Source of the DNA: Flavisolibacter sp.
GTDB lineage: Bacteria; Bacteroidota; Bacteroidia; Chitinophagales; Chitinophagaceae
Direction of reading: 5' to 3'
DNA length: 47,270 nt
Assembly: GCA_028288675.1 (NCBI GenBank)
Contig: JAQBNG010000070.1
Location: 1 to 47,270, forward strand
Below, piece after piece: positions 23,249-43,000 of the stretch. A model generated the notes under the pieces. It ran no database searches. It saw only the letters and a program-made list of their open reading frames with translations, and was not told the DNA's origin. A program made the translations under genes and the position numbers. Numbering within the stretch: position 1 is the first letter of the stretch; every line of letters starts with the position of its first letter.

Positions 23249-23278
23249 CAAAGATAGAGGGGAGAAAGCAAGTAGCAA
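23249..23278 (-). promoter_or_regulatory. Promoter of sucC, with the -33 box inside a repeat arm
   Basis: On the minus strand TTG (23276-23278), 19 bases, then TATCTTTG (23249-23256), an exact Bacteroidota -7 box with normal spacing. The ATG follows 21 bases later. The TTG belongs to the left arm of the inverted repeat at 23270-23410. Confidence 0.65.
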
Positions 23279-23410
23279 GTACCAAGTAGCGAGTAGCCGC
23301 TTAAATTCAAAGACTCATCAAAGTCGCTATTAAACTTTACGGATGAAGAAAGAACATTAAATAGGAAAGTTTAAACAAGAAGGGTACTCGCCACTCGGTA
23401 CTTGCTACTA
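23270..23410. repeat. Inverted-repeat element with AAGTAnC heptad arms
   Basis: The left arm (23270-23298) consists of heptads AAGTAGC, AAGTACC, AAGTAGC, GAGTAGC. The right arm (23382-23410) is its reverse complement with about 4 mismatches in 29. Inside lies a second small inverted pair, TTAAACTTT and AAAGTTTAA. The right arm provides the TAG stop of the receiver gene and the left arm reaches into the sucC promoter. Confidence 0.8.
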
Positions 23411-23758
23411 AAAGAAATTATCCAGCGATTTTAAGCTGATGGGCTTTTCCCATATGGTTAGCTTGGCGCCATCAAGTTCGGTAGGCATAGTTGGCCTGAA
23501 AGCGCTGATCAAATGATACTGAACTTCGGGAAAGCGATGAAACATTTCAGGGAGCTTGTCCCACCCCAGTCCATCCGGCAGGTTATAGTCAATAAATAAA
23601 TAATCGGGGGCGGGAGTAAGGCCGTTAAGCCGCGACATGCCGTCGGTTAGCGTATGAGCTATATAAACTTCGTAGTTCTTACGAAGAAAATAGGTCTTCA
23701 TCAGCAGACATAAATCCACTTCGTCATCTATTATTAAAACCTTTTTCCTTGTAGTCAT
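23408..23758 (-). CDS. Stand-alone response-regulator receiver protein
   Basis: A 116-residue CheY-like protein with no output domain. The acidic pocket is LIIDDE at 8-13, the phospho-acceptor is D57 in FIDYNLPDG, the switch residue is Ser in LISAF, and the conserved Lys is in WEKPISL. It would act as a phosphorylated shuttle or binding switch in the cytoplasm. No kinase is adjacent; the nearest is the receiver-PAS-kinase at 29594. Its TAG stop lies in the arm of the inverted repeat, and it ends right after the last helix begins (LDNFF). The final helix is therefore a little shorter than usual and may have been trimmed by the repeat. Confidence 0.87.
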   Translation of the reverse strand: MTTRKKVLIIDDEVDLCLLMKTYFLRKNYEVYIAHTLTDGMSRLNGLTPAPDYLFIDYNLPDGLGWDKLPEMFHRFPEVQYHLISAFRPTMPTELDGAKLTIWEKPISLKSLDNFF

Positions 23759-23894
23759 AGCTCGTCAACAATGCTTTAGTTGCTTAATTATCATACCAAA
23801 TATTTCCAGCCTTATGTGTTACTGCCCAAAACGTAAAAATAGAGGTTATGTAGATTTTTATACATTGTTTTATTTATAGCCTAACCGTTATCCT

Positions 23895-23902
23895 TTACTT
23901 TG
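23895..23902 (+). promoter_or_regulatory. Candidate -7 element for the YtxH operon
   Basis: TTACTTTG differs from TAnnTTTG at one position and lies 54 bases before the YtxH ATG in an AT-rich leader. No -33 box at normal spacing. Tentative. Confidence 0.35.
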
Positions 23903-23956
23903 GTACGATTATTTAAACGATAAGGAAAATAATTACTCATTTTAAACAGTAAGTAT

Positions 23957-24214
23957 ATGAGCTCAAAAACAAAATTGGTATTAGGTTTAGTAGGTGCTGC
24001 CGCCGCTGGTGTTATAGTTGGTTTATTATTAGCACCTGAAGCCGGAGCTGATACCCGTAAAAAAATTACTAGTACCGCAGGCGATTGGACCAGTCATTTA
24101 GGTGACTTGTTTTCAAGCGCTAAAGATGAAGCGGCCAACCTTAAGTCGAAAGGTAGTAAAGCTGCATCTTCTGCTGCTAACCGCTTTAACGAGGTTAAAG
24201 AAAGTTACAGCTAA
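23957..24214 (+). CDS. YtxH-domain stress protein
   Basis: An 85-residue protein with one N-terminal transmembrane helix (LVLGLVGAAAAGVIVGLLLAP) followed by the family hallmark APEAGADTRKKI and an Ala/Lys-rich amphipathic tail that can form a coiled helix (SSAKDEAANLKSKGSKAASS). YtxH proteins are general-stress proteins of unknown mechanism; the tail resembles late-embryogenesis-like helices. It heads a group of four small genes in the same orientation that look like one envelope-stress operon. Confidence 0.9.
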   Translation: MSSKTKLVLGLVGAAAAGVIVGLLLAPEAGADTRKKITSTAGDWTSHLGDLFSSAKDEAANLKSKGSKAASSAANRFNEVKESYS

Positions 24215-24267
24215 ACCCCTTTTACCAGCCCTGCCAAGGCAGGGTTGCTTCTTTTCAAATTTCTCTT

Positions 24268-24609
24268 ATGGACGATCTGAAGACCCAAGCCGCTCATTTA
24301 AAAGATCACGTAAGTGAGTATGTACAAAGTACTGTACAGCTGGCAAAAGCAAAAGCAACTAAAGGCGCTTCCAATGCTGCAGCCGGTGCTGCAATTGGAA
24401 TTACTACACTTGTGTTAGGCTTATTTTTCCTGGCCTTTCTTTTTACAGCGCTTGCCTGGTGGTTGGGTAGTTTACTAAATAGCCCCGCATTGGGTTTTTT
24501 ATGTGTAGCAGGTTTATTCCTGCTTCTTATTATTTTACTTTTTGCACTGCGTAAGAAAGTGATTGTCCCTTTAATTCGCAATGCTATCATCAGCGCTATT
24601 TATGACTAA
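24268..24609 (+). CDS. Phage-holin-family / YqjE-like inner-membrane protein
   Basis: A 113-residue protein. An amphipathic N-terminus (KTQAAHLKDHVSEYVQSTVQLAKAKA without its first residues) is followed by two strongly hydrophobic helices (about 41-68 and 72-95) separated by a short loop, and a basic end (ALRKKVIVPLIRNAI). This is the layout of the putative holin-X/YqjE group that accompanies YtxH and YqjD-like stress proteins; despite the family name, lysis is unlikely here. Its stop overlaps the next ATG by eight bases, which implies coupled translation. Confidence 0.8.
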   Translation: MDDLKTQAAHLKDHVSEYVQSTVQLAKAKATKGASNAAAGAAIGITTLVLGLFFLAFLFTALAWWLGSLLNSPALGFLCVAGLFLLLIILLFALRKKVIVPLIRNAIISAIYD

Positions 24610-25027
24610 AAAGATAAGTACATACGAGGATCTTCTTCAGGAAGAACAACGTTTAACAGCACAATTATCATCTTACAAAGAGCTTATAAAAGATGATATT
24701 GATGGCATTAAGCAAGGCCTCAACCCGTTTAAACAAGTTGCTAAAACAGTGCGGAGCTTATTTACACGTGGCGATAATGGCCCGCTGCTAAACTTCGGTA
24801 TGAATTTCGGGCTTGATGTATTTTTGAAAAAGGTGTTATTAGGCCGTGCCAGCTGGGTTACTAAAGTAGTAGTGCCTTACGTGATAAAAAACTATGCATC
24901 GCACCTTATCACTGAGGATCAGCGTAGAAACGTAGCTAAATCAGTAAGTAAGTTTCTAACGAAGTTTATGATGAAGAAAAAGACAGAGCCCTTCGAAGCA
25001 GCACCTCCTGCTACACCTATGTACTAA
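24602..25027 (+). CDS. Hypothetical protein of the YtxH/holin-like operon
   Basis: A 141-residue basic protein. The N-terminus is a predicted coiled coil (TYEDLLQEEQRLTAQLSSYKELIKDDIDGIKQGLNP), followed by a mildly hydrophobic centre (NFGMNFGLDVFLKKVLLG, VTKVVVPYVIKNYASHLI) and a Lys-rich tail ending in APPATPMY. No named domain is recognised. The start at 24602 overlaps the preceding stop by eight bases (ATGACTAA), so the protein is made together with the holin-like membrane protein and may bind the same membrane. The longer frame from 24581 is less likely. Confidence 0.75.
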   Translation: MTKKISTYEDLLQEEQRLTAQLSSYKELIKDDIDGIKQGLNPFKQVAKTVRSLFTRGDNGPLLNFGMNFGLDVFLKKVLLGRASWVTKVVVPYVIKNYASHLITEDQRRNVAKSVSKFLTKFMMKKKTEPFEAAPPATPMY

Positions 25028-25083
25028 TGAAACTGGCTGGATACTGTAATTGGATTATTCATCTCTCATCTAATACCTTTTAT

Positions 25084-25329
25084 ATGAGTATAGAAAATGG
25101 TGGCCCCCGCATTAAAGAAGAAAATACTGAATCAACGTTTGAAACAATGCCTGATGTTACACCACGACGGGAAGGCGGCGATGATGCTTTAGCTGAAACC
25201 AATCCGTCGGATAGCCGGTTGGATGAATTCGTTATTGTAAATGAACAAAGAGAAAATAAAATTGTTAACTCTCCTTCGCAAACAGAAGTGCATACAAGCG
25301 AAGTGGAAAATACTGTTGATGGATCTTAG
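25084..25329 (+). CDS. Small acidic, probably disordered protein
   Basis: An 81-residue hydrophilic protein rich in Glu, Asp, Asn, Ser and Thr, with no hydrophobic core. It is probably intrinsically disordered. An in-frame ATG at 25027 overlaps the preceding stop by one base (TAATG) and would add 19 residues of mixed character (MKLAGYCNWIIHL and following). I prefer 25084 because the acidic composition starts there, but coupling to the preceding gene would argue for 25027. It is the last gene of the presumed stress operon; a terminator follows at 25492. No family recognised. The compositionally similar 64-residue protein at 37441 is also in a stress-gene neighbourhood. Confidence 0.55.
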   Translation: MSIENGGPRIKEENTESTFETMPDVTPRREGGDDALAETNPSDSRLDEFVIVNEQRENKIVNSPSQTEVHTSEVENTVDGS

Positions 25330-25387
25330 ACAGGATATGCTACAGAAGAAAAGAATTCTTAACCTATAGAAAGGAACTATGATTACT

Positions 25388-25440
25388 GGTCTCCCGGCAG
25401 TGTAAATATTGGCGGATGTGAAAAAGGTTGTCGGGAGATT
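25388..25440 (+). other. Long-range hairpin in the operon trailer, possible small RNA
   Basis: TCTCCCG at 25390-25396 pairs with CGGGAGA at 25432-25438 across a 35-base loop, about 60 bases after the last ORF of the stress operon and upstream of the terminator at 25492. It could be a structured 3' UTR or an independent small RNA. Confidence 0.3.
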
Positions 25441-25491
25441 TTATTCAAAAATTAGTTTTTATAATATAAGAAGTTGGATTTAAAGATGAGG

Positions 25492-25520
25492 ATACCTGGA
25501 TATGTTTCAGGTATTTTTTT
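25492..25520 (+). terminator. Rho-independent terminator of the YtxH operon
   Basis: ATACCTG (25492-25498) pairs with CAGGTAT (25508-25514) over a 9-base loop, followed by a run of six or more T. It ends the transcript coming from the small stress genes. Confidence 0.8.
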
Positions 25521-26095
25521 GTTTATGATAGAGAGAGATTTGAGTATCTTTTAAGCCTTAGGTAAGTTAGCGATAGGTGGTGTGCAGTAAGGTTTGAGGA
25601 ATTAGTTCTACTAAGGTTAGTTTAATTAAAAATGCTGGGTTTGTAAGCACCCAAAAGACAGTAGGTTTTTTCTCTGGAGCATTGAACCCAATAGATGCTG
25701 GCTTCCCATTTTTCTACAAAAAGCTTAAACCTAATATTGACAATAAGAGATTTCTGATCCTTGGTCATCGGTCCAAAAAGACGAGGTTATCTTCTTCCTT
25801 CTTTCTTTGAAAATAGAATAAGATTGAGTTTGCAATAAACCTTTTGCACAGCATGTTTAAACTGCCTTACCACAGGCTAATTTTAAATGTTGACAATATC
25901 GGCATGCAGCTAATTCGTAGAATTGCTTCCACAGCCAAGCCTGGTTTTGCAATAAGTGGAAACTATTAGAAAAAGCATTTGTAAAATCAGCATTTCATAA
26001 AGGGCTGATATTCATCAATGAAGGGACTCATTTGAAGATTAATTTTTTTTGGAGCCACACTTGTTTTTGCTTTGTGCGTTTAAATCAGAACCAAG
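25521..26095. other. Intergenic region upstream of rpoN
   Basis: About 575 bases without a convincing gene. One plus-strand frame stays open from about 25591 to 25809 (about 70 codons, no ATG) and reads like protein in places (KLKPNIDNKRFLILG), so it may be a decayed gene end that I cannot identify. TTGCTTTG at 26067-26074 is a weak -7 candidate for rpoN. No repeat was recognised. Confidence 0.4.
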
Positions 26096-27517
26096 ATGAT
26101 CAATCAACATTTAGCACAAAAACAAAGGCTTAAAATTTTACCACAGCAAATTCAGCTGCTGAACTTTTTTCATCTGAATACCTTGGAGTTAGAACACCGG
26201 ATCACCCAGGAGATAGAAGATAATCCTTTGCTGGAAGACCAGAAAAATGATTTTGACACCGATGTAGAAAAATTTAATAAGGATAGCGTACAGGATTACC
26301 AGGATTGGGAAGAATATGTGTACGATGACATACCTGATTACAAAGCGGAATACGGAAATTTCCTTCATAACGATAAGCTCCCTGAACGGCCTATCACTAA
26401 CAGTTTCGATTACCGTTCCTCAATTAAAGATCAGTATAAGCTAACTTCCACTGATGCGGCTGAAATTGAGCTTGCAGAATTTATTATTGATTCGCTTAAC
26501 GACAGCGGCCTTATGGAACAAAGCCTGCAAAGTTTAGCAGAGGATCTTTCTTTTAAGCGCAATAAATGGATTGAGGAAGACAGCCTTCTTTATGTTCTGA
26601 AAAAAATACAGGCACTGGAGCCTGTGGGGATAGGTGCAAGAAGCATCAAAGAATGTTTGCTTATTCAGCTATACCGGCTAAATACAAAACGTCCTGATGT
26701 AAAAACGGCAGTTAAATTATTGGAAGAGCATTTTGCCGATTTGCATCATCGCAACATGGACAAAATAAAAGCACATTTAAAAATTGATGAAGACGAATTA
26801 AAGATTGTACTCACCTTAATTGCTTCTTTAAAAATGCGGCCCGTTTGCGAACTTCAGGAAGGCGTAAACAGCAACCAGAATATCTTACCAGATTTTGTTA
26901 TTACCCGCAATGCAGATGTAATTGAAGTGCATTTGTACCGGCAACGTTCCGAAAGTTTGAATATTAATTCTACCTGGAAGGAAATGGCTGAGAACAATGC
27001 TAAAGTAACTACCGATAAATCTGCCGTACAGTACATAAAAAATAAGCTGCAATCGGCGCAGTGGTTCATTCATGCTGTGCAGCAAAGAGAATCTACAATG
27101 ATCAAGATCATGAAATCAATCGTGCATCTCCAATACGATTATTTCATGACAGGTGATATCAACCTGCTCAAACCTATGATCTTAAAAAATATAGCCGAGA
27201 TGGTAGGCGTGGATATTTCAACCGTATCCCGTATCACCTGTAATAAATATGCCGAATCGCCTTTTGGTTTACTACTGTTGAAAGACCTGTTTACCGAAGG
27301 AATCGCCAATGAAAAAGGACAGGTGATCTCAAACAAAGTAATTCAATCAGCGATAGAAGAAGTCATTCTAACAGAAGACAAGCATAACCCCTACACCGAC
27401 CAGCAATTGGTTAAGATTCTTTCTGAAAAAGGGTTCTCCGTAGCCCGCCGCACCGTAGCCAAGTACCGGGAGCAATTACAAATTCCCGTATCACATGTTC
27501 GCGGCTTATGGGCATAA
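26096..27517 (+). CDS. rpoN: RNA polymerase sigma-54 factor
   Basis: A 473-residue sigma-54. Region I is Gln/Leu-rich at the N-terminus (LAQKQRLKILPQQIQLLNFFHL) and contacts activators; an acidic region II lies at about 50-110; the core-binding and DNA-binding domains follow; and the RpoN box is ARRTVAKYRE at 450-459. It directs transcription from -24/-12 promoters and needs an AAA+ activator, which is encoded immediately downstream (27554). The 36-base gap suggests that both are co-transcribed, so sigma factor and activator may be produced together. Confidence 0.96.
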   Translation: MINQHLAQKQRLKILPQQIQLLNFFHLNTLELEHRITQEIEDNPLLEDQKNDFDTDVEKFNKDSVQDYQDWEEYVYDDIPDYKAEYGNFLHNDKLPERPITNSFDYRSSIKDQYKLTSTDAAEIELAEFIIDSLNDSGLMEQSLQSLAEDLSFKRNKWIEEDSLLYVLKKIQALEPVGIGARSIKECLLIQLYRLNTKRPDVKTAVKLLEEHFADLHHRNMDKIKAHLKIDEDELKIVLTLIASLKMRPVCELQEGVNSNQNILPDFVITRNADVIEVHLYRQRSESLNINSTWKEMAENNAKVTTDKSAVQYIKNKLQSAQWFIHAVQQRESTMIKIMKSIVHLQYDYFMTGDINLLKPMILKNIAEMVGVDISTVSRITCNKYAESPFGLLLLKDLFTEGIANEKGQVISNKVIQSAIEEVILTEDKHNPYTDQQLVKILSEKGFSVARRTVAKYREQLQIPVSHVRGLWA

Positions 27518-27553
27518 AACTATAAATTCGCATTTTTAAAATACTTCGTTTAC

Positions 27554-29077
27554 ATGCAAACCATTCTGATCATTGATGATGACCGTGACATTTGTTTACT
27601 GCTCAAGCGATTTCTTACCCGTCATAATTACGAAGTGCTGGAATCGTACAGCGGCAAAAAAGCTCTGGAACTTTTAGAAGAAACCGAGCCTGATTTAGTG
27701 ATGTGCGATTTCAGGCTGGAAGACATGGAAGGAAACACATTGCTTGGAAAAATAAAAGAGAAATACCTGCACCTTCCGGTGATTATCATGACTGGCTACA
27801 GCGATATAAAAATTGCAGTGGAGGTGATGAAGATGGGTGCCTTTGATTATATCACCAAGCCCCTCTTTCCCGATGAAATTTTAGTTACTATTAAGAAAGC
27901 ATTGGAAGCGCCGGCGCAGGAAAGAGACACCATCAGGCATGAAAGAAAAATGACTGAAACAGAAAAACCAAAAGCTACGGCAGCACCTGTTAAAGGCCCG
28001 GCTATTACTGTTTCAGGTGAATATATTTTTGGCGATACAACTGTATTCCGCCAATTGCTTCAACAAATTGACTTAGTAGCGCCTACTAATTACACTGTAA
28101 TAATTCATGGCGAAAGCGGTAGCGGAAAAGAAGCGATTGCACAAGAGATACACAAACGCAGCAAGCGTAAATCGAAACCATTTGTAGCCATTGATTGTGG
28201 AGCGTTATCGAAAGAGTTAGCCGGCTCCGAATTATTTGGCCATGAAAAAGGTTCCTTCACCGGCGCCCTAAATCAAAAGAACGGAAGCTTTGAATTAGCC
28301 AATGCAGGTACCATTTTCTTAGATGAAATTTCCAACCTTTCTTACGAGATACAAATTTCCTTGCTTCGTGTAGTGCAGGAAAGAAAGATGCGTAGAATTG
28401 GGGGAGTGAAAGATATTGACCTGGATGTTCGTATTATCATCGCCTCTAACGAAAGGTTGTGGGATGCAGTTAGAAAAGGAAAATTCAGGGAGGATCTTTA
28501 TCATCGCTTTAATGAATTCAGCATTGACATTCCGCCACTGCGCCAGCGCCCCGAAGACGTGTTGCTATTTGCCAATCACTTTTTACAGCAAACAAACATC
28601 GAGCTTGGAAAAAATGTACGCCGCCTGAGTAACGATGTGGAAAATATTTTTAAAAATTATGTGTGGTATGGTAACCTGCGTGAGCTGAAGAATGTTATAA
28701 AAAGGGCTACGCTTTTATCAGATGGTGAAGAAATAGAAGCAAGCGCTTTGCCTTTCGAAATTTCCAACTTCAATAAGCTGCAGTTTGATAAAGGACCGCA
28801 GATTGAATCAGTGACTAATTCGTACAACTCGGCTTCCAGCATTTATGCGCCTGCATCGGTGGCTACACCTGTGGCCGTAGAAGAAGTTGAGGAACCGCTA
28901 CGTTCAATGTCGGAAACCACACTGAAAGGCGCCAGCATAGATGCCGAATATGAAATGATTTTAAAGGCCCTTAAAAAAGTAAACTTCAATAAAAGTAAAG
29001 CTGCCAAGCTGCTGAATATCGACAGAAAAACGCTGTACAATAAAATGAAGCAGTACCAGGAATTTAATAATCAATAA
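27554..29077 (+). CDS. Sigma-54-dependent response regulator, NtrC family
   Basis: A 507-residue three-domain activator. The receiver (1-120) has the phospho-acceptor D52 (MCDFRLED) and K102 (ITKPLFP). The AAA+ domain (about 152-390) has the Walker A motif GESGSGKE at 186-193, the sigma-54-contacting loop GSFTGA at 233-238 (Ser replaces the usual Ala), the Walker B segment FLDEI and arginine fingers in DLYHRFNEF. A linker of about 60 residues rich in Ala, Ser and Val precedes the Fis-type helix-turn-helix at the C-terminus (NFNKSKAAKLLNIDRKTLYNKM). It is encoded directly after rpoN and before a kinase with its own receiver. The target promoters are unknown. Confidence 0.95.
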   Translation: MQTILIIDDDRDICLLLKRFLTRHNYEVLESYSGKKALELLEETEPDLVMCDFRLEDMEGNTLLGKIKEKYLHLPVIIMTGYSDIKIAVEVMKMGAFDYITKPLFPDEILVTIKKALEAPAQERDTIRHERKMTETEKPKATAAPVKGPAITVSGEYIFGDTTVFRQLLQQIDLVAPTNYTVIIHGESGSGKEAIAQEIHKRSKRKSKPFVAIDCGALSKELAGSELFGHEKGSFTGALNQKNGSFELANAGTIFLDEISNLSYEIQISLLRVVQERKMRRIGGVKDIDLDVRIIIASNERLWDAVRKGKFREDLYHRFNEFSIDIPPLRQRPEDVLLFANHFLQQTNIELGKNVRRLSNDVENIFKNYVWYGNLRELKNVIKRATLLSDGEEIEASALPFEISNFNKLQFDKGPQIESVTNSYNSASSIYAPASVATPVAVEEVEEPLRSMSETTLKGASIDAEYEMILKALKKVNFNKSKAAKLLNIDRKTLYNKMKQYQEFNNQ

Positions 29078-29086
29078 GCATTTGTA

Positions 29087-29587
29087 ATGCCCGCTACCAA
29101 CTCACGACAGGCTAAACCGGCTCTACCAATTGCTTTCATAGACTCTTCTGCAAAAGGCCTTTGCAATGCCAATATAGTATTACAAAACGCTATGCGGAAA
29201 TTGGAGCCCGAAGTAAAAAATCTTTTCCTTCTTCGTTGCGATGAATTACCCTTTGTACTGGGAGATGAAGAAAGCATTGAAACGGTTTTCCTGGAGTTAA
29301 TTCAAATGATCGCCGAAAAAAACGACACGGCAACAAAAATGTATCTGCACATTAAAACAGCAATTGATGATACTGAAGCGATACAGGCTTTTAAGCAAAA
29401 TGGCTTTAGCCGGTATTTCATTCAGTTTCATACCAATATGACGCCCTGTGAAGAATGGATAAAAACTTCGGAACAAAAGATTTCTGACCTTAATACATTG
29501 CTGGCTCCTTTTGCCGGCAACCTGGCACTTAACCCATTAAAAAATTCGGGCTGTATCCTTTCTGTTGCCTTGCCCGGTAAATTATAG
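29087..29587 (+). CDS. Degenerate histidine-kinase ATPase-like (GHKL) protein
   Basis: A 166-residue protein that I read as an isolated, degenerate HATPase domain. Residues 58-76 (LGDEESIETVFLELIQMIA) have the spacing of a kinase N-box, but the conserved Asn positions are occupied by Glu and Gln. Residues 129-163 (ending in NSGCILSVALPGK) resemble the C-terminal G-x-L-x-x-x-P-x-x-x-x-G-x-x-x-x-x-x-LP end of such domains. The D-x-G-x-G and G-x-G-L-G loops are not visible, and there is no dimerisation or His-box domain. It lies 9 bases after the NtrC-type gene and 6 bases before the kinase gene, so it belongs to this signalling operon. A non-catalytic adaptor or antagonist role is inferred. Confidence 0.6.
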   Translation: MPATNSRQAKPALPIAFIDSSAKGLCNANIVLQNAMRKLEPEVKNLFLLRCDELPFVLGDEESIETVFLELIQMIAEKNDTATKMYLHIKTAIDDTEAIQAFKQNGFSRYFIQFHTNMTPCEEWIKTSEQKISDLNTLLAPFAGNLALNPLKNSGCILSVALPGKL

Positions 29588-29593
29588 CCTTTT

Positions 29594-31051
29594 ATGGAGT
29601 CTCCTTTGCCCCGTTTAGTACGTGTATTAATTATTGATGATGATGAAGACGACTTCTTCATTACATCGGAATACCTGAAAAGCATACAGGAGTACCAGCT
29701 TCAAATTGACTGGAGCTACAAGTTTAACGATGCGGTAGAACGATTACAAAAGAGAAGCTATGATATGTACTTTGTTGACTATCGCTTAGGCGCTAAAACC
29801 GGCCTTGACTTCTTAAAGGAAGCGGTAGCGATAGGATCGGAAGAACCGATTGTTTTACTAACAGGTAAGGGTAATAAAGCTGTGGATATTGAAGCCATGC
29901 AAATGGGTGCTACGGATTACCTTATTAAAACAGAACTTACTACTGAAAAGCTGGAAAGGTGCATCCGCTATTCGATGGAGCGTACCTCTTACTTAAAAGC
30001 ACTGCGGGCTAATGAAACAAAATACAGGGGCATGTTTGAGCTGTCGAAAGATGCTGTCTTTATCGCTGATGAGAACCTGAAATTTAAAGATTGTAACCCC
30101 GCCACTTCTAACTTATTAGGCTATACAAAAGAAGAATTAGGAAAGCTGTCCGTTTATGATTTGATAGCGGATGAATACAATAAGGACCTGCTTCAAAAAC
30201 TGATGAACCGGGATGGGCACCTGGCTGACCTGGAAATAGACTTAATAACTAAAGAGGAAGATAAAAAAACCTGCGTACTGTCAACCACCGCCACCAATGA
30301 TAAAGATGGCACTTTCTTCCAGGGGCTTCTTCACGACATTACAAATTTGCGAAGAGTAGAGAAAGCCAACCTGATGGTAGAAAAACTAGGAGCCACCGGC
30401 AGGCTCGTTCGTATACTGGCGCATGAAGTACGTAACCCGCTCAACAATATTAATATGTCGGTTGAGCAAATCGTACACAGCGTTGCCGAAAGTGAAGACA
30501 CGACTTTGTTTCTTGACATCATCCAGCGAAACAGCAAACGGATAGGCGACATCATTACAGAGTTATTAGATACAGCAAGGCCCACCGAACTTACATTTGA
30601 AAATCATACGCTACAGAGCATCATGGATGAAGCAATTGCTGAAGCCCTTGACCGTATTACTTTACAGCATATCAACATGCAGGTAAAATATACCAATGCT
30701 CCCTGTTATGTAATGGCGAACAAAGAAAAACTGCGCATCGCTTTTTTAAATATTGTCATTAATGCTGTGGAAGCGATGGAGCCGGGAGAAGGAACATTAA
30801 CCCTCACCATTGATACAGTCAAAACTTCACATGTCGTCACCATAAAAGACAATGGCTGCGGCATACCGGAAGAAAATCTTTCACGTTTATTTGAACCTTA
30901 TTTTACGTCGAAAAGAAATGGTATGGGATTAGGGCTGGCAGCCACGCTCAACATTTTGCAATCGCATAAAGCTAATGTCGATGTAACATCTGTGCTTAAA
31001 GGCGGCACCACATTCACTATTATTTTCCCCGGTGCAGATCCGGTGCTTTAG
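29594..31051 (+). CDS. Receiver-PAS-histidine kinase
   Basis: A 485-residue soluble kinase with an N-terminal receiver. Receiver 1-125: LIIDDDEDD, acceptor D62 in FVDYRLG, K112 in YLIKTEL. PAS domain about 142-260 (MFELSKDAVFIADENLKF, TSNLLGYTKEELG). HisKA: H277 in LAHEVRNPLNN. HATPase: N-box FLNIVINAVEAM, then DNGCGIPEE, FTSKRNGMGLGL and GGTTFTIIFP. No membrane segment. A receiver at the front means the kinase output can be modulated by another phosphodonor. It ends the rpoN operon and is the likely kinase for the NtrC-type regulator (NtrB-like arrangement). Its last four bases overlap the convergent gene. Confidence 0.94.
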   Translation: MESPLPRLVRVLIIDDDEDDFFITSEYLKSIQEYQLQIDWSYKFNDAVERLQKRSYDMYFVDYRLGAKTGLDFLKEAVAIGSEEPIVLLTGKGNKAVDIEAMQMGATDYLIKTELTTEKLERCIRYSMERTSYLKALRANETKYRGMFELSKDAVFIADENLKFKDCNPATSNLLGYTKEELGKLSVYDLIADEYNKDLLQKLMNRDGHLADLEIDLITKEEDKKTCVLSTTATNDKDGTFFQGLLHDITNLRRVEKANLMVEKLGATGRLVRILAHEVRNPLNNINMSVEQIVHSVAESEDTTLFLDIIQRNSKRIGDIITELLDTARPTELTFENHTLQSIMDEAIAEALDRITLQHINMQVKYTNAPCYVMANKEKLRIAFLNIVINAVEAMEPGEGTLTLTIDTVKTSHVVTIKDNGCGIPEENLSRLFEPYFTSKRNGMGLGLAATLNILQSHKANVDVTSVLKGGTTFTIIFPGADPVL

Positions 31052-31341: not shown

Positions 31342-31440
31342 AGTACTAAATTTACTTTCTTCCAAGGTCCATGGGTTCAGCTTCAGATAATGTTTAGGCT
31401 AAATTTCTATGCCACTTAACTACTATGGCGCAATTCTTAA

Positions 31441-33230: not shown

Positions 33231-33267
33231 TTAATAAAGAAAATAACCTGCCAATTTTTTTATTTCG

Positions 33268-33298: not shown

Positions 33299-33309
33299 TA
33301 GATATCCAC

Positions 33310-33333: not shown

Positions 33334-33359
33334 CTTTCAACAATTTTTATTTCCGGTCA

Positions 33360-34387: not shown

Positions 34388-34461
34388 AAGGTAATGGTTT
34401 ACAAATGACGGATGGCAGCTTACTTTGACTGACGTCCGTCATACATAAAAACTGCAATTGC

Positions 34462-36005: not shown

Positions 36006-36036
36006 TTGACGTTTTAATTTTATGGTATTCTATTTG
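36006..36036 (+). promoter_or_regulatory. Promoter of the PNPOx-like/ku operon
   Basis: TTG at 36006-36008 (within TTGACG), 20 bases, then TCTATTTG at 36029-36036, one mismatch from TAnnTTTG. It lies 49 bases before the ATG of the first gene. Confidence 0.45.
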
Positions 36037-36085
36037 GAATAAAATGGTTAACGGACTCTTTGATTACTAAACCAAATACAACGTT

Positions 36086-36583: not shown

Positions 36584-36586
36584 ATC

Positions 36587-37369
36587 ATGAAAAGCGCAAG
36601 ATCCATTTGGTCAGGTTCCATCACGTTTGGCTTAGTAAACATTCCTGTGAAACTGCAAAGTGCAGTGCAGGAAGACAGTATTGACTTTGATATGCTCTCT
36701 AAAAAAGACATGTCGCCAATACGTTATGCCCGCATTGACAGTAAGACTGGCGAAGAAGTAGAATGGAAGGAAATTGTGAAAGGATTTGAATATGCCAAAG
36801 GAAAATATGTAGTTGTTACCGATGAAGATTTTGAAAAAGCTAGGCCCGATGTTGCCAAAGCCATTGACATTATCCAGTTTGTAAAAGAAGAAGAAATAGA
36901 CCCTATTTTTTATGAGAAGCCTTACTTTATTGTACCGGCAAAAGGCGCGGAGAAGGCTTATAAATTGTTATTGAAAGGATTAGATGAAACAAAGACTGTT
37001 GCACTTGCCGAATTTATGTTGCGCAACCGGGCGCATATCTGCACACTAAAAAATCATGAAGGCATTTTGCTGTTAACGCAGTTGCGCTATAACGAAGAGG
37101 TGCGGGAAGTTCCTGAAGTGGCTACTAAAGCCGAACGCATTTCACCAAAGGAAATACAGTTAGCAACCAAGCTTATTAATCAACTTACCGAACCTTTTGA
37201 CCCCGCAAAATTTAAAGACACTTACATAACCGAATTGAAAAAAGTCATCAAAGCAAAAGCAGCAGGTAAAAGCATTCATATTGCGGAACCACGGCAATTA
37301 CCAGCGACTGTAAAAGACTTAATGGAAGTGTTGAAGCAAAGTTTGGAAACGAAGAAGAAGAGAGCCTGA
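36587..37369 (+). CDS. ku: Ku protein, non-homologous end joining
   Basis: A 260-residue bacterial Ku homodimer subunit. The N-terminus (MKSARSIWSGSITFGLVNIPVKLQ) and the core (KGFEYAKGKYVVVTDEDFE, IDIIQFVKEEEIDPIFYEKPYF, GILLLTQLRYNEEVRE) are the family landmarks. It encircles DNA double-strand ends and recruits LigD, which is encoded 0.5 kb downstream on the same strand. The C-terminal tail is basic (KAKAAGKSIH, ETKKKRA) but short. It is co-transcribed with the PNPOx-like gene. Confidence 0.97.
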   Translation: MKSARSIWSGSITFGLVNIPVKLQSAVQEDSIDFDMLSKKDMSPIRYARIDSKTGEEVEWKEIVKGFEYAKGKYVVVTDEDFEKARPDVAKAIDIIQFVKEEEIDPIFYEKPYFIVPAKGAEKAYKLLLKGLDETKTVALAEFMLRNRAHICTLKNHEGILLLTQLRYNEEVREVPEVATKAERISPKEIQLATKLINQLTEPFDPAKFKDTYITELKKVIKAKAAGKSIHIAEPRQLPATVKDLMEVLKQSLETKKKRA

Positions 37370-37370
37370 T

Positions 37371-37440
37371 CTAGTTGACCAGTTAACTGGTCTGTCTTCA
37401 GCTTTTTCGCCGCTAATCAACTAATAAATCAATCAACTAC
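37371..37440. repeat. Inverted element with AGTTGA-type words and a perfect 16-bp palindrome
   Basis: GACCAGTTAACTGGTC at 37377-37392 is a perfect palindrome, preceded by CTAGTT. The segment near 37416-37440 carries ATCAACTAATAAATCAATCAA, whose reverse complement repeats the TAGTTGA word. It has the same style as the other word-repeat elements and lies between ku and the convergent small gene. Confidence 0.45.
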
Positions 37441-37635
37441 CTACTTTCCCGTCACCGGTGCATTCTGTTCCGAGTTCCCATTATAATCTGTATAGCTTTC
37501 ACTTTCATCTTTTCCTTCCTCTGCTTTTTCAGGCTTAGCGCTTCGTTCTGCATCCCGGTTATTAAACGATGACATATCCCCAGCCATAGGATTTTGTTCT
37601 ACTGGTGTACTGCGTTTTTCATCCCTGTTTTCCAT
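37441..37635 (-). CDS. Small hydrophilic, probably disordered protein
   Basis: A 64-residue protein of Glu, Asp, Lys, Asn and Ser with no hydrophobic core (MENRDEKRSTPVEQNPMAGD, then KAEEGKDESESYTDYNGNSE). The frame continues upstream to an ATG at 37656, but the seven added residues have a different character. No family is recognised. Its composition is like that of the acidic protein at 25084. It lies between ku and ligD on the opposite strand and is followed by a word-repeat element. Coding status is plausible but not proven. Confidence 0.5.
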   Translation of the reverse strand: MENRDEKRSTPVEQNPMAGDMSSFNNRDAERSAKPEKAEEGKDESESYTDYNGNSEQNAPVTGK

Positions 37636-37680
37636 ACTACTTTTTAATAAATGCAAACAATTCTATGCCATGATAGAACA

Positions 37681-37825
37681 AATGAGCAATAAGCAATGGG
37701 CAATAGGTAAAACGAAGCGCTTTGCTTCTATTTAACAAGACTGTTAGCAATCAGCCAGCTTGAATTTGCCTGAACCTTAAATATTTTTCACTTGCCAATT
37801 GCACATTGCCTATTGCTTATTGTCT
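37681..37825. repeat. Inverted-repeat element with GCAATAn heptad arms (upstream of ligD)
   Basis: The left arm (about 37681-37708) reads GAGCAATAAGCAATGGGCAA and on; the right arm (37792-37825) is the inverse (TTGCCTATTGCTTATTGTC). They share CAATAAGCAAT-n-GGCAAT as reverse complements, across about 85 bases that include a small GAAGC/GCTTC hairpin. It lies between divergent genes. Confidence 0.75.
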
Positions 37826-37864
37826 GTTTTCTTCCGTGGCATTAATTTTTCAATTTCCTTGTAC

Positions 37865-40588
37865 ATGAGTCTTTCCCAATATAATAGTAAAAGAGATTTT
37901 AAAAAAACCGCTGAGCCTGCAGGAAAAGAGGGCTCGTCAAAAGGCAGCCTTCGTTTTGTTGTACAGAAACACGATGCCTCACATGTGCATTATGACTTTC
38001 GTTTAGAGATGGAAGGGGCGCTAAAAAGTTGGGCGGTGCCTAAAGGGCCGTCTCTTAATCCTGCAGACAAACGCCTCGCCATGATGGTAGAAGACCACCC
38101 TTTTGATTACCGGAATTTTGAAGGAGTGATACCCGCAGGTGAGTATGGCGGCGGAACCGTGATAGTGTGGGATGAGGGAACCTATGAACCAATTGGTATT
38201 GACGGAATGAGCAGGGCAGAACAAGAGAAAACGTTGTTGCGCCAATTGCATGCAGGCAAATTAAATTTTGTTCTTCATGGCAAAAAACTGCAAGGTGAGT
38301 TTACTCTTTTTCTAATGAAAGGCCGCGGGGAAAGGTCCTGGATCTTAGTAAAGAATAAAGACCACTGGAGCAGTACAGAAGACATTGCACAAAATGAAAT
38401 GTCTGTAAAAAGCGGTAAGACTTTAGTAGAGATAGCGCATGATAACGGAACTGAAGTAAATCACCCGGAAGCGCACGGCAATGCACAAAAATTTCAGCCA
38501 AAGCCTGCACCTGAAAAAGCATCTGCACCATTAAAAAAACAGCCTAAGAAAGCTATTGCCGCAGCATCTCCGAAGAAGAAAGATGCGTCAACAATGCCGA
38601 AAGACATAGTTCCCATGTTAGCCACTTTAGTGAACGAACCCTTTGATGATAAGGACTGGATTTTTGAAATCAAATGGGATGGCTACCGAGCTGTAGGTTA
38701 TTGCGAAGGAGAGTCGGTTGAACTAATCTCAAGGAACCTGAAACCTTTCACAGAAAAGTATGCACCCGTTGCTAAAGCCTTAAAAGACCTGGACCTAAAT
38801 GCAATATTCGATGGTGAGATAGTGGCTGTTAATGAAAAAGGCGTAGCTAATTTTCAAGCTTTGCAAAACTGGCAAAATACTCCTGTGCGATTGCAGTACT
38901 TCATCTTTGATATTTTATGGTTGGATGGTAAGGATGTAACCAAGCTTCCTTTACTGGAACGCAAAGCCTTATTGCAAGATCTCCTCCCCGAAAACAACGA
39001 AGTGATCAAGTATAGCGACCATGTTGCTACAAAGGGAAAGCAGTTTTTTAAACAAGCATTGAAGCAAGGCCTTGAAGGTATCATGGCAAAAAAAGCCGAC
39101 AGCATTTACGAGATAGATACACGTACAAATGAGTGGGTGAAGATTAAGGTGGCCCAACGACAGGAGGTTGTAATTACCGGTTATACGCAGCCACGCAAAA
39201 CAAGAAAATTTTTCGGCTCTCTCCTGCTTGGTGTTTACGATGGAGATGAGCTTGTTTATATCGGTCATACCGGAAGCGGCTTCAATACGAAGTCTTTGGG
39301 TGAAATTTATAATAAGCTTCAACCTTTGATTATTGAGAATGCTCCTTTCAACAAAAAACCAAAGGCCAACATGCCTGCAACCTGGGTGAAGCCGGAATTA
39401 GTATGCGAAATAAAATTTACAGAATGGACATCGGATAACATGGCCCGCCATCCAATTTTCATGGGCCTGCGCACCGATAAAAAAGCAACTGATGTACGAC
39501 TTGAAAAAAGCACAACTATGGCTAAACTTAAAACTACCGCAACAAAAAGTACGGCAACTAAAAAGGCGGCAACCAAAAAAGTAGCAGCAAAAAAAAGCGG
39601 CGCCAAACCTCGTCAAAAAAAGAGTGTGGCCGCCACAAAAACAGCAGGCGCAAAAATAGATTTAGAGAAAGGTGAGGACCAGCAACTCGTTTTAAATGGT
39701 AACGAAATAGCACTTACCAACCTGCAAAAACTTTATTGGAAAAAGGAAGGTTTCAGCAAGGGAGATACGATTAATTACTACTTGCAAGTAGCACCTTACA
39801 TGCTGCCCTATCTTCTTAAGAGACCGCACTCCCTAAATCGACATCCAAATGGTGTTGGCGCACCAAATTTTTATCAAAAAGATGTGCGGGGTAAAGTACC
39901 CGCATGGGTAGAAACCTTTGATGAATTCAGTGAGTCGAATAATGAAACCATTCAGTATTTTGTTTGCAGCAATGAAGCATCGCTTATCTACATGGCCAAC
40001 TTAGGTTGTATTGAAATTAATCCCTGGCATGGGCGGGTAGGTTCAACGCTTCAACCCGACTGGTGCCTGATAGACCTGGACCCTGATACCACCAACACAT
40101 TTGAACAGGTGATTGAAGTTGCCAACGTAGTCAAGAAATTTTTGGATGCTATTGGTGCTGATAGTTGCGTAAAAACATCTGGTTCAACCGGCATACATAT
40201 TTACGTTCCGTTAGGTGGTAAATATAATTATGAGCAGAGCAAACAACTAGCAGAATTGATAGTGAATTTGGTTCATGCCGAACTGCCTGATTTCACCAGT
40301 GTAGAAAGAAGTCCTGCCAACCGGAAGGGGAAAATATACCTTGACTTTTTACAAAACCGCGAGACGCAAACGGCTGCTGCCCCGTACTCTCTTCGTCCTA
40401 AACCCGGTGTGCCTGTATCTACTCCCTTGCATTGGAGCGAAGTGAAAAAAGGTTTAACGCCTACAACTTATACTGCCTTCAATATTTTCGACCGCTTAAA
40501 AACAGAAGGCGACTTGTTCAAGCCTGTGTTGCAAAAAGGAATAGATTTAGATAAGGTGCTGAAAAAAGTTCAGGCACTGATTAAATGA
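37865..40588 (+). CDS. ligD: Multifunctional ATP-dependent DNA ligase D
   Basis: A 907-residue NHEJ ligase in the order phosphoesterase-ligase-polymerase, as in Pseudomonas LigD. PE domain about 20-200 (FVVQKHDASHVHYDFRLEME, VIPAGEYGGGTVIVWDEG). Ligase about 248-540, with the adenylated Lys K270 in FEIKWDGYR, and IFDGEIV, GIMAKK and WVKIKV. Linker 550-598 of ATKK/AAKK repeats. Polymerase about 605-900, with the metal aspartates D737 and D739 (IDLDPD), KTSGSTGIHIYVP and YSLRP. The start at 37865 is preferred; the open frame begins 66 bases earlier inside the word repeat, and its extra 22 residues are repeat-encoded. Partner of Ku (36587). Confidence 0.97.
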   Translation: MSLSQYNSKRDFKKTAEPAGKEGSSKGSLRFVVQKHDASHVHYDFRLEMEGALKSWAVPKGPSLNPADKRLAMMVEDHPFDYRNFEGVIPAGEYGGGTVIVWDEGTYEPIGIDGMSRAEQEKTLLRQLHAGKLNFVLHGKKLQGEFTLFLMKGRGERSWILVKNKDHWSSTEDIAQNEMSVKSGKTLVEIAHDNGTEVNHPEAHGNAQKFQPKPAPEKASAPLKKQPKKAIAAASPKKKDASTMPKDIVPMLATLVNEPFDDKDWIFEIKWDGYRAVGYCEGESVELISRNLKPFTEKYAPVAKALKDLDLNAIFDGEIVAVNEKGVANFQALQNWQNTPVRLQYFIFDILWLDGKDVTKLPLLERKALLQDLLPENNEVIKYSDHVATKGKQFFKQALKQGLEGIMAKKADSIYEIDTRTNEWVKIKVAQRQEVVITGYTQPRKTRKFFGSLLLGVYDGDELVYIGHTGSGFNTKSLGEIYNKLQPLIIENAPFNKKPKANMPATWVKPELVCEIKFTEWTSDNMARHPIFMGLRTDKKATDVRLEKSTTMAKLKTTATKSTATKKAATKKVAAKKSGAKPRQKKSVAATKTAGAKIDLEKGEDQQLVLNGNEIALTNLQKLYWKKEGFSKGDTINYYLQVAPYMLPYLLKRPHSLNRHPNGVGAPNFYQKDVRGKVPAWVETFDEFSESNNETIQYFVCSNEASLIYMANLGCIEINPWHGRVGSTLQPDWCLIDLDPDTTNTFEQVIEVANVVKKFLDAIGADSCVKTSGSTGIHIYVPLGGKYNYEQSKQLAELIVNLVHAELPDFTSVERSPANRKGKIYLDFLQNRETQTAAAPYSLRPKPGVPVSTPLHWSEVKKGLTPTTYTAFNIFDRLKTEGDLFKPVLQKGIDLDKVLKKVQALIK

Positions 40589-40610
40589 TAAAAAATTGAA
40601 TTGCTTTTTG

Positions 40611-40688
40611 CACCAGGCGGACGGAATATTAATTAAGCTTCTCTTGCGTCGCACTCTTGTACGTTCTTATCGCTATGCAACAAAATAA
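40611..40688 (+). repeat. Dispersed intergenic repeat of about 70 bp, copy B
   Basis: The best match to copy A: GGCGGACGG, AAGCTT, TTGCGTCGCAC, TTCTTATCGCTATGCA and CAAAATA align in order with similar spacing. It lies between ligD and the SMP-30 gene and ends six bases before the latter's ATG. Confidence 0.75.
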
Positions 40689-40694
40689 AAAATC

Positions 40695-41579
40695 ATGCAT
40701 CCTTCCTTAAAAATTTATGATGAAAGAATCAAAGACTTTATCAATACAAATTTTGAATTGCAAACTTTAGCTGATGATTGTCTTTTTACCGAAGGCCCCG
40801 TTTGGAATAGCGAGGGATTTTTTTTGTTTAGCGATATCACCGCAAACACAGTTTACAAAATTTCTCCCGGTAAAACAAAGGAAGTTTTTATAGCTAACAG
40901 TGGCACGTCAAACATATACAATGAAGACCTAAAACCCGGCCAGGCAGGATCAAATGCATTAGCTTATAACAAAGAAGGTGAGCTGTTAGTTTGCCGTCAT
41001 GGAACAGGCGAAATAGCAAAATGGAAAGATGGAAACCTTCAACCTTTTATTTCTTCTTATAAAGGCAAACGGTTCAACAGTCCTAACGATTTAATTGTAG
41101 ATAAAAGCGGTCGCATATTTTTCTCCGACCCTCCCTACGGGTTAAAGGATGGGAAATTAAACCCCGAAAAATTTCAGCCGCTTGCTGCGGTTTATTGCTG
41201 GCAGAATGGAGACTTAAAAATCGTTTGCGATAAATACCAATATCCAAACGGCGTGTGTATCGGTCCCGATGGAACAGAATTATACATCTGTTCCAATAAG
41301 CCTTTTGAAAAGTTTATATCGGTTTATGATATCGAAACACTTCAGTATAAAAGAGTTTTAGCGGAAGAAAATAGTGATGGTATTAAGTGCGATCCATCCG
41401 GCAATATTTATCTCGGCAATAAAGATGGAATTATTATTTTAAATAAGGAAGGAAGGCGTTTAGCAGCGATAGAATTGCAAACTGTTCCTTCAAATATTTG
41501 CTGGGGTGGTGATGGTTTGAAAGACTTGTTTATTACTGCAAGGGAGAATATTTTCCTCATTAAAAATTTGCTTCGTTGA
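40695..41579 (+). CDS. SMP-30/gluconolactonase-like six-bladed propeller hydrolase
   Basis: A 294-residue beta-propeller lactonase. The metal ligands are recognisable: Glu in FTEGPVWNSEGFFLFSD, Asn and Asp in NSPNDLIVDKSGRIFFSDPP, Asn in YPNGVCIGPDG, and Asp in NSDGIKCDPSGNIYLG. No signal peptide is present, so it is cytoplasmic, unlike many Bacteroidota relatives. It should open a sugar lactone or related ester. No sugar-oxidising partner is adjacent. Copy B of the dispersed repeat lies immediately upstream of the ATG and may have replaced or displaced the promoter. Confidence 0.92.
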   Translation: MHPSLKIYDERIKDFINTNFELQTLADDCLFTEGPVWNSEGFFLFSDITANTVYKISPGKTKEVFIANSGTSNIYNEDLKPGQAGSNALAYNKEGELLVCRHGTGEIAKWKDGNLQPFISSYKGKRFNSPNDLIVDKSGRIFFSDPPYGLKDGKLNPEKFQPLAAVYCWQNGDLKIVCDKYQYPNGVCIGPDGTELYICSNKPFEKFISVYDIETLQYKRVLAEENSDGIKCDPSGNIYLGNKDGIIILNKEGRRLAAIELQTVPSNICWGGDGLKDLFITARENIFLIKNLLR

Positions 41580-41583
41580 AAAA

Positions 41584-41613
41584 TTTGCAGGTATCAAAAC
41601 TGCCCTAATTTTG
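41584..41613 (+). promoter_or_regulatory. Promoter of the aminotransferase gene, near-leaderless
   Basis: TTTG (41584-41587), 18 bases, then TAATTTTG (41606-41613): both Bacteroidota boxes match exactly with normal spacing. Only four bases separate the -7 box from the ATG at 41618, so transcription should start at or within a few bases of the start codon. Confidence 0.65.
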
Positions 41614-41617
41614 GCTT

Positions 41618-42850
41618 ATGCTACAAATCAGTAACCGTGGGAAGCAAATGCCACCCTCTCCTATCCGCAAATTAGTGCCCTATGCAGAAGCTGCTAAAAA
41701 GAGCGGCATCAAAGTGTTTCACTTAAACATTGGCCAGCCTGATATTGAAACACCACCATCCATTTTAGATGCCGTTCGTAAAGCCGATATACCTGTTTTA
41801 GAATACAGTCACAGCGCCGGTAATGAAAGCTACAGACGTAAATTGGTGAGCTACTATAAATCAGTTGGTATCAATGTCACACATGAGCAGATCATGGTTA
41901 CCACCGGCGGTTCCGAAGCCATCATGTTTGGCTTTTTTTCCTGCCTTAATCCGGGTGATGAAGTAATTATTCCTGAACCCTTTTATGCTAATTATAATGG
42001 CTTCGCCATGCAGGCAGGGGTCAAGGTGGTTCCTATTACATCATACATTGAAAACGGCTTTGCGTTACCACCGATCAATGAGTTTGAAAAAGTTATAACA
42101 GAAAATACAAAAGCTATAATTGTTTGCAGTCCTAACAACCCAACCGGTTATTTATATAGCCGGCAGGAGATGGAAGCTTTAAAAACAATTTGCCTTGAAC
42201 ATAAGCTCTATCTTTTTTCTGATGAAGCCTACCGGGAGTTTTCTTACTCAGGAGAGTATACCAGTGCCATGCACCTTGAAGGCATGGATGAGAATGTAGT
42301 CTTAATGGATACTATCAGCAAACGGTACAGTGCCTGCGGCGCAAGGCTTGGAGCCTTAGTTACCAAAAATAAAAGCGTGTATGATACAGCTATGAAGTTT
42401 GCACAAGCACGTTTAAGTCCACCCGGACTTGCGCAAATCATGGGCGAAGCGGCTGTTGATTTACCAGCCTCTTATTTTGACAGCCCAAAGGCTGAATATT
42501 TAAAAAGAAGGGATTTGTTGGTAAGTCGGTTGAACAGAATGGATGGGGTCTTTTGCCCTGTGCCCGGTGGCGCTTTTTATGCAATAGCAAGCTTACCAAT
42601 TGATGATTCAGATGTGTTTTGTCAATGGTTGCTGGAGTCATTTTCACACAATGGTAAAACAGTTATGCTGGCACCGGCTACCGGTTTTTATGGTACACCT
42701 GGTTTAGGTAAGAATGAAGTGCGTTTAGCTTATGTCTTAAATGTAAAGGATCTGAGTGATGCCATGGATTGTTTGGAAGAGGCTTTAATGCAGTACCCTG
42801 GCAGAGTACAAACTGTACAGAGTGAATTCGCAATAGGCAATAGGCAATGA
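41618..42850 (+). CDS. Class I/II PLP-dependent aminotransferase
   Basis: A 410-residue fold-type I aminotransferase. MLQISNRGKQMPPSPIRKLV is the usual start of this Bacteroidota group. Landmarks: SPNNPTG at 171-177, D202 (SDEAYREF) for the pyridine nitrogen, the PLP Lys K235 in DTISKRYSACGARLGA, and R243. It resembles aspartate or aromatic aminotransferases; the substrate is not determined. The last residues (about FAIGNRQ and the stop) are encoded by the word-repeat element that begins at 42829, so the gene end has been reshaped by the repeat. The start codon lies directly after a near-leaderless promoter. Confidence 0.94.
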   Translation: MLQISNRGKQMPPSPIRKLVPYAEAAKKSGIKVFHLNIGQPDIETPPSILDAVRKADIPVLEYSHSAGNESYRRKLVSYYKSVGINVTHEQIMVTTGGSEAIMFGFFSCLNPGDEVIIPEPFYANYNGFAMQAGVKVVPITSYIENGFALPPINEFEKVITENTKAIIVCSPNNPTGYLYSRQEMEALKTICLEHKLYLFSDEAYREFSYSGEYTSAMHLEGMDENVVLMDTISKRYSACGARLGALVTKNKSVYDTAMKFAQARLSPPGLAQIMGEAAVDLPASYFDSPKAEYLKRRDLLVSRLNRMDGVFCPVPGGAFYAIASLPIDDSDVFCQWLLESFSHNGKTVMLAPATGFYGTPGLGKNEVRLAYVLNVKDLSDAMDCLEEALMQYPGRVQTVQSEFAIGNRQ

Positions 42851-43000
42851 GCAATAAACAATAGGCAATACACAAAAAATTAGCAGCAAGCAGTTGACAG
42901 AAACATTCTCACTCCCAACTTGCATACAATTTAAAACGCTGACAAATTAGAGTCAGGGCTTTTATTGCCCATTGTTTATTGCTAATTGCCAATTAATTGC
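42829..43000. repeat. Inverted-repeat element with GCAATAn heptad arms (3' of the aminotransferase)
   Basis: The left arm (42829-42870) is a run of heptads GCAATAG, GCAATAG, GCAATGA, GCAATAA, ACAATAG, GCAATAC. The right arm (42961-43000) is the inverse, matching with about 3 mismatches over 27 bases. The roughly 90-base interior has no ORF. The left arm supplies the aminotransferase stop codon. Confidence 0.8.

Follow-up and report, generated by a model that had tools for sequence, protein, structure and literature searches.

Inverted heptamer arrays in the window

The window analysed here, a stretch of 47,270 nucleotides (nt) that forms contig C148 of a Flavisolibacter sp. genome assembly (4.74 Mb, 254 contigs), carries inverted repeats whose two arms are built from reiterated, imperfect 7-nt words. 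A first-pass annotation of the window, made from its letters alone, had proposed that one architecture is written here with many different words, and this holds within the one genome as well as across the family: the layout is real, genome-wide and not bound to one word within the genus. The elements can be described as dispersed non-coding repeats of gene ends, consisting of two facing one-word arrays around a short spacer or of a single array.

Three elements of the window have clear inverted heptad arms. The first, with the word AAGTAGC, has a left arm at 23261..23297 (plus strand), whose purine-rich strand reads inward, a core at 23298..23385 that is unmatched among the other cores compared, and a right arm at 23386..23409 (minus strand) that abuts the stop end (23408) of a response-regulator-like frame on the minus strand (23408-23758). 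Its paired arms (23271-23298 and 23382-23409) are 28 nt long, 89% complementary and show an identity of 0.74 at a lag of 7 nt, and the hairpin 23261-23409 folds with a z-score of -8.2. The second and third elements both use the word GCAATAR. One has arms at 37678..37714 (plus strand) and 37789..37832 (minus strand, preceding the LigD gene), with 30-nt arms at 37681-37710 and 37792-37821 and a lag-7 identity of 0.78; the repeat search pairs 18 nt of them at 94%. The other has a left arm at 42825..42879 (plus strand), a core at 42880..42962 with a terminator-like hairpin at its end, and a right arm at 42963..42994 (minus strand), its 32-nt arms (42839-42870 and 42963-42994) being 91% complementary with a lag-7 identity of 0.74. 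The left arm contains the stop codon (TGA, 42848-42850) of an aminotransferase frame (41618-42850), which thus draws its own stop from within the GCAATAR array. Folded against a crude shuffle, the two GCAATAR elements gave z-scores of -2.4 (37678-37832) and -2.8 (42825-42998).

The remaining sites listed by the first-pass annotation fared unevenly. A partial match announced near 20140 is, by eye, a lone diverged GCAATAR array (20164..20196, minus strand) directly behind the stop end of a minus-strand frame (20199-21326); it had no inverted partner in the repeat search, fell below the array-finder threshold and has no stable fold (z 0.5). Two further sites are weak examples. Behind the Ku stop codon lies an AGTTGAC-type inverted repeat (37372..37441, plus strand) that is barely heptad, was absent from all repeat and array scans of the window and folds with a z-score of -1.2, and a short AGTTGGC hairpin (45708..45745, plus strand) adjoins the stop end of a minus-strand frame (45752-46516). 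This hairpin has an uninterrupted 14-bp stem (fold z -8.6 for 45700-45753), fewer than two word units and a lag-7 identity of 0.44. A last listed site, at 3608, belongs to another class, described below.

Abundance, polarity and position of the arrays

The element type is common, not rare. Allowing up to 3 mismatches, a 19-nt probe for GCAATAR found 77 forward and 77 reverse placements (154) in the genome of the window (hereafter the own genome), whereas its reversed pattern found 0 and 2, and the placements listed are spread over tens of separate sites; whole-genome counts of this kind are overlapping probe placements and not loci, one long array yielding many. In one round of such counts the reversed probe was identical to the word itself and hence served as no control. 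When 426 kb of own sequence (the window, contig C110 and 11 stretches chosen for GCAATAR) were scanned by period, period 7 gave 29 good arrays and the single Markov control 2, the figures for period 6 were 45 and 23, periods 4, 5 and 8 stayed near control and periods 9-15 gave 0-2. In the later array listing by word and in the genus-pooled stop test below, the array-finder filter suppresses periods 5 and 6, and zeros there carry no meaning. Inverted pairs of arrays with matching words, no more than 200 nt apart, numbered 16 in 1.10 Mb of own sequence (controls 0/0/0), 15 in 400 kb of the congener G003 (controls 0/0/0) and 9 in a set of 1.39 Mb drawn from 80 loci of Chitinophagaceae and related records (controls 2/0/0), all Markov controls being first-order. 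The real sequence of the own genome and G003 yielded 4 and 2 inverted pairs at period 8, and 1 and 0 at period 9. Because most stretches of the own genome, G003, G006 and G014, apart from the window and C110, were chosen for GCAATAR hits, with a small number taken for different hits or to cover more of such contigs, densities in these samples cannot be scaled up.

Many further words were found in the own sample and in relatives, including GTGAGTG/GTGAATG, AAAATGT, AGGAGTC, GTGAAAC, GATGACG, GTTTGG-type words, GGTTCAT, GGGACAA, GAGATAT and others. Across 58 genomes (the own genome and 57 relatives), word placements differ by species without following kinship. GCAATAR reaches 154 placements in the own genome, 75 in G003, 125 in G006 and 238 in G014, and outside the genus mostly 0-6 (maximum 26); AGGAGTC has 68 in G003, 0 in G014 and 84 in G045, a member of another family; GTGAGTG has 342 in G014, 6 in G003 and 280 in G007; and GTGAAAC has 453 and 364 in G029 and G024, both of other genera. 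Unit spellings of GCAATnn also vary by genome (chi-square P 0.006 over loci). Two long, near-perfect arrays are likely recent expansions: a GCAGTAG array of about 19 units at a contig end in G014 (C4:191561-191693, locus L277) and an AGGAGTC array of about 18 units in G006 (C58:270377-270507). In G009 the reversed control pattern itself scores 37 placements, so that a private TAACGGA-type word may have multiplied in this genome.

Facing arms carry the same word more often than chance would predict. Taking consecutive arrays no more than 250 nt apart, words matched in 15/20 cases in G003 (0.8 expected under random re-pairing), 9/24 in the own genome (3.7), 3/9 in G006 (1.5), 4/12 in G014 (1.7) and 6/23 in other genera (0.4). 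Under a strict test, 7 of 34 stop-proximal arrays in the own genome, 14 of 28 in G003 and 9 of 28 in other genera had a significant partner no more than 250 nt away. At one G003 locus (L207) the right arm follows the unit order of the left arm, minus one unit. The arms also have a polarity, the purine-rich strand reading inward as a rule within the genus. Among adjacent arrays of nine words, up to 200 nt apart and sampled in the own genome, G003, G006 and G014, a 14-nt probe counted 44 inward pairs, 0 outward and 4 in the same direction, and a 19-nt probe 37, 1 and 3. Consecutive arrays of any word in the genus have inward-leading purine-rich strands in 44 of 65 pairs and outward-leading ones in 3, and word-matched pairs are purine-led in 15/16 cases in the own genome, 13/15 in G003 and 7/9 in other genera.

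The arrays are mostly intergenic, and in many cases one arm begins at a stop codon or overlaps it. Genes were taken as open frames, read from the first ATG, GTG or TTG, with a minimum of 90 codons (60 for the Trichormus test and 120 for the terminator test, both given below), which makes distances to starts rough. Among the 45 strict intergenic arrays of the own sample, 25 begin no more than 15 nt from the nearest upstream stop (random placement, 26%) and none at 16-48 nt; in G003 the count is 17 of 38 (random placement, 22%), and the distances from array edge to stop are bimodal. The 255 heptad arrays pooled over the genus include 99 at -30 to +15 nt from a stop (here called stop-proximal) and 66 elsewhere within 300 nt, and in the set from other genera 27 of 81 are stop-proximal. 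At other periods the stop-proximal share was 16/55 (period 8), 3/41 (period 9) and 2/51 (period 12). Stop-proximal arrays are purine-rich in the sense strand in 85/99 cases in the genus and 21 of the 27 in other genera; purine-rich stretches make up 408 of 862 background 40-nt stretches behind array-free stops of the own genome, and only 22 of 85 arrays lying more than 40 nt past a stop (all sets). Stop codons occur in the sense reading of 122/132 stop-proximal arrays and in the antisense reading of 77/132. A canonical terminator is found at 14 of 94 array-bearing stops and at 200 of 817 array-free ones (odds ratio 0.54, P 0.04) and, where present with an array, lies further from the stop (median 74 vs 32 nt). 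The elements were thus not identified as intrinsic terminators, a GC-rich hairpin with a U tract occurring near only those 14 stops; the arms themselves were left unscored in this count.

Between species, arrays differ by whole 7-nt units. The syntenic relatives compared average about 82% identity or less; G006 and G014 are about 80% identical, and in this pair unit numbers are altered in 7-nt steps and one orthologous site carries different words. Over six genome pairs, 153 comparisons of orthologous stops gave an array at both in 8 (2.3 expected), at one only in 22 and at neither in 123; the 8 represent 5 distinct sites, and their words differ by no more than two letters in 6 of 8. For the sites of the window, comparisons at 23270, 37371 and 37681, and in G001 and G008, were made by eye. 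At the aminotransferase site, the gene in G003 is followed by an array of the same word and by a terminator; the array of G008 is decayed, that of G001 is of AGTTACA type, and no array was seen in G004, G007, G009, G010 and G011. The G003 counterpart of the AAGTAGC element is a GCAATCG-type array, that of the AGTTGAC-type repeat an inverted GTTGGTG-type repeat, and at the site of the other GCAATAR element G003 has none. The end of the aminotransferase gene in 50 of the 80 family loci showed one full element (GGTTCAT, L042), clear word arrays at L036 and, at seven further loci, only weak, distant or AT-rich matches. Among genome contigs, the aminotransferase of the window best matches that of Flavisolibacter longurius (85% protein identity), and records of Chitinophagaceae and related groups come next.

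Other repeats stand apart from the arrays. The ACCGCAGAGAA inverted repeat at 3608..3694 (plus strand), which the first-pass annotation had counted among the heptad elements, lies between convergent frames and has 11-nt complementary arms with a fold z-score of -4.2; array scans gave no 7-nt array there. Inverted repeats of the ACCGCAGAGAA / ACCACAAAGA type recur at about 2042-2117 of locus L271 and about 5274-5421 of L281, and are apparently a separate intergenic class lacking the 7-nt period. Another inverted repeat that is not heptad, with arms beginning TTGTCATCCC, is found on own contig C110 (107500-107622). An Rfam search of the window returned one tRNA and nothing else.

Origin of the arrays

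Our preferred account, held tentatively, combines heptad slippage with word-guided copying, acting at or tolerated in the untranslated but transcribed DNA behind stop codons. Arrays would gain and lose units through one-unit slippage, and template switching or ectopic copying, in which the word serves as microhomology, may give rise to new arrays and to the facing arm. The process would be most efficient, or best tolerated, where ribosomes leave the transcript uncovered, that is, just past the stop, and purine-rich nascent RNA could remain annealed to its template there as an R-loop. Because 7 is not a multiple of 3, a word bearing TAA, TAG or TGA stops every frame within three units, and overlap of such an array with a gene end would be harmless. 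In RNA, paired arms would form a long hairpin downstream of the gene; this hairpin may have a use, although any need for it is putative. We count in favour of this account the stop position, the polarity, the word sharing, the whole-unit changes, the long perfect arrays and the filled and empty orthologous sites; as the same layout uses many words, a single sequence cannot be the cause.

A number of observations weigh against the same account. Its R-loops and template switching are both putative, and it offers no reason for a unit length of 7. The stop argument is not general, because the Xanthomonas word GGGAATC has no stop trinucleotide on either strand. For the common word, the partner arm of the same locus is not clearly better matched than an arm from another locus, so that unit order is only loosely tied to locus. 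The position rule has many exceptions, 43 of the 255 genus arrays lying inside frames and 47 having no assigned stop within 300 nt. Purine richness reaches 46/49 in stop-overlapping arrays, yet these necessarily contain a stop (an ascertainment effect), and among arrays beginning at least 1 nt past the stop it is only 40/58 (all sets). As for polarity, one outward pair exists (G003 L208, 10619-10857, 19-nt probe), and the rule is not established outside the genus, because any-word pairs of other genera are inward in 6 and outward in 5 of 23 cases.

The first-pass annotation had seen in the varied words a sign of slippage plus inversion, or of a word-specific enzyme, rather than of simple copying. 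Plain slippage with random segment inversion would account for the changes in unit number, but it should produce both polarities, and the nearly absolute polarity (44 vs 0, or 37 vs 1 with the longer probe) excludes it with scarcely any residual doubt. Nor is the preference over copying supported: the commonest word stands at tens of loci with genome-specific unit spellings, AAAATGT arms retain their unit order at several loci (by eye), and the 42829 element is homologous through arms and core to an element of own contig C152 (L123 597-740). These observations, with the nearly fixed polarity and the orthologous sites that are occupied in only one of two species, are what would be expected of non-autonomous mobile hairpins resembling miniature inverted-repeat transposable elements, in which the arms are terminal inverted repeats, a transposase inserts behind stops and slippage later diversifies the arms. 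We consider this origin unlikely, though a serious contender, since the 26 cores of word-matched pairs compared (a set outside which the C152 match falls) are unrelated save for one 18-nt match, partnerless arrays are common, one G014 spacer (L281) is flanked by two arms built from different words and no transposase was linked to the arrays in a Y1_Tnp search of six genomes.

That search bears also on repetitive extragenic palindromic (REP) elements, which are short intergenic inverted repeats present in many copies, without word arrays, and are associated with RAYT transposases. The elements described here resemble them as multi-copy intergenic inverted repeats, and differ in their word arrays. 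Mobilisation by RAYT-type (Y1) transposases could draw on the 26 Y1_Tnp matches, present in all six genomes, and on heptad arrays within about 300 nt of a Y1 gene at L223 and L215, outside its REP hairpins. It is nevertheless highly improbable, because the inverted repeats closest to Y1 genes are GC-rich hairpins of REP type. Scans of the 26 loci found non-heptad inverted repeats at 9, and short ones were seen by eye in others of the ten loci inspected; heptad arrays occur near Y1 genes at L215, L223, L228, L234 and L236, on both sides only at L223, where they are weak and lie beyond the hairpins. At L211, L217, L231 and L232, Y1-transposase loci of the genus, long nested GC-rich palindromes show a REP-type arrangement.

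An enzyme specific for the words was not found: Y1 genes have their own hairpins, and the presence of Ku does not track array load. Ku had suggested itself because the window encodes Ku and a LigD that combines phosphoesterase, ligase and primase-polymerase domains (36587-40588), with two of the elements, at 37371 and 37681, between the two genes. Ku-positive genomes do have more placements of four words (median 73 vs 6, P 0.002, 58 genomes), and within the family the medians are 99 and 6.5 (P 0.06), both statistics ignoring phylogeny. However, Ku status and load are inconsistent, with G029 (469 placements), G045 (209) and G012 (192) loaded but Ku-negative and G018, G019, G022, G031, G035 and G055 Ku-positive with only 2-4 placements, and we did not adopt a link to non-homologous end joining.

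Selection for RNA hairpins behind stops, acting as terminators, in 3'-end protection or as insulation between genes, with slippage as the raw material, would explain the stable stem of the AAGTAGC element, the shared word of facing arms, the lower frequency of terminators at array-bearing stops and the excess of orthologous stops with arrays at both. It appears improbable, though still a serious contender, given how few arrays have a downstream partner passing the strict test, the different unit numbers of the two arms, the greater distance of the terminator, where there is one, from the stop, and the modest folds of both GCAATAR elements. Compensatory maintenance of the arms, as the first-pass annotation envisaged, does not hold in its strict form, as arms differ by whole units (G003 L207, G006 and G014) and many arrays are partnerless. 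A G-quadruplex function, as proposed for Xanthomonas GGGAATC, agrees in layout and polarity with PMC4692102, but four GGG runs occur in 0 of 99 stop-proximal arrays of the genus; such an origin fails for the genus and retains very little probability.

Comparison with known heptamer repeats

With tens of natural loci per genome, these arrays lend themselves to tests of transcription-coupled repeat expansion in bacteria. In practical terms, arrays can provide the stop codon of a gene (window 42848-42850) or terminate contigs (G014 C4). The remark of the first-pass annotation that the class has no standard name stands for the literature we searched, from which subscription journals mostly fell outside and in which the many-word form was not found in Bacteroidota; the class does have close precedents in PMC4692102 and PMC4679880.

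The closest precedent is the GGGAATC and GGGGA(C/T)T heptamer repeats of Xanthomonas and Nostoc (Rehm et al. 2015, PMC4692102). The Xanthomonas GGGAATC repeats have the same layout as the elements here, with tandem 7-nt units, mostly intergenic, in convergent arrays, and paired repeats are few in Nostoc. Their words are G-rich, quadruplex-forming and one per organism studied, whereas here there are many words per genome, loads vary between species and some orthologous sites carry different words. A second precedent is the TAACTGA direct repeats of Beggiatoaceae, cyanobacteria and five Bacteroidetes (MacGregor 2015, PMC4679880), which likewise form intergenic heptamer arrays, differ mostly by 7-nt indels between two Cyanothece strains and have other heptamers mixed in (Microcystis); mixed heptamers are reported in a few Bacteroidetes gaps. 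In the main genome of that study, the arrays lie mostly just upstream of start codons and are direct, with one indirect repeat. The arrays here cluster at stops, our start codons being only roughly called. More broadly, long simple sequence repeats with units of 5-11 nt (Mrazek et al. 2007, as cited in PMC4679880 and PMC4692102) are most often heptamers in most genomes, and slippage by polymerase footprint has been proposed for them; no inverted partner, polarity or stop anchoring is mentioned for them in those citations.

Another phylum was also sampled. In 300 kb of one plasmid of Trichormus variabilis, 16 strict arrays were found, 4 of them in frames and 8 assigned, with 5 at a stop and 2 of these 5 purine-rich, numbers that carry no conclusion on polarity. 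One inverted element of the word AGGAGTC (NC_007410.1, about 143051-143145, L289) fills the 95-nt gap between AVA_RS31740 and AVA_RS26640, and the same word occurs in Chitinophagaceae. This shared word fits a possible, if rather doubtful, generalisation: a word-independent process common to Bacteroidota, Cyanobacteriota and Xanthomonas may place inverted pairs of heptamer arrays in the untranslated margins of genes, as a rule with the strand rich in purines or G running in from the gene, such that layout and period would be inherited and not sequence. PMC4692102 and PMC4679880 seek the cause in a particular word (a quadruplex and a regulator site). Because a single genome shows the same layout, polarity and stop anchoring with many unrelated words, word-specific explanations are disfavoured and a general process on transcribed, untranslated DNA is favoured; the element itself belongs to a known, still unexplained kind of repeat, of which it is the form with many words and without quadruplexes.

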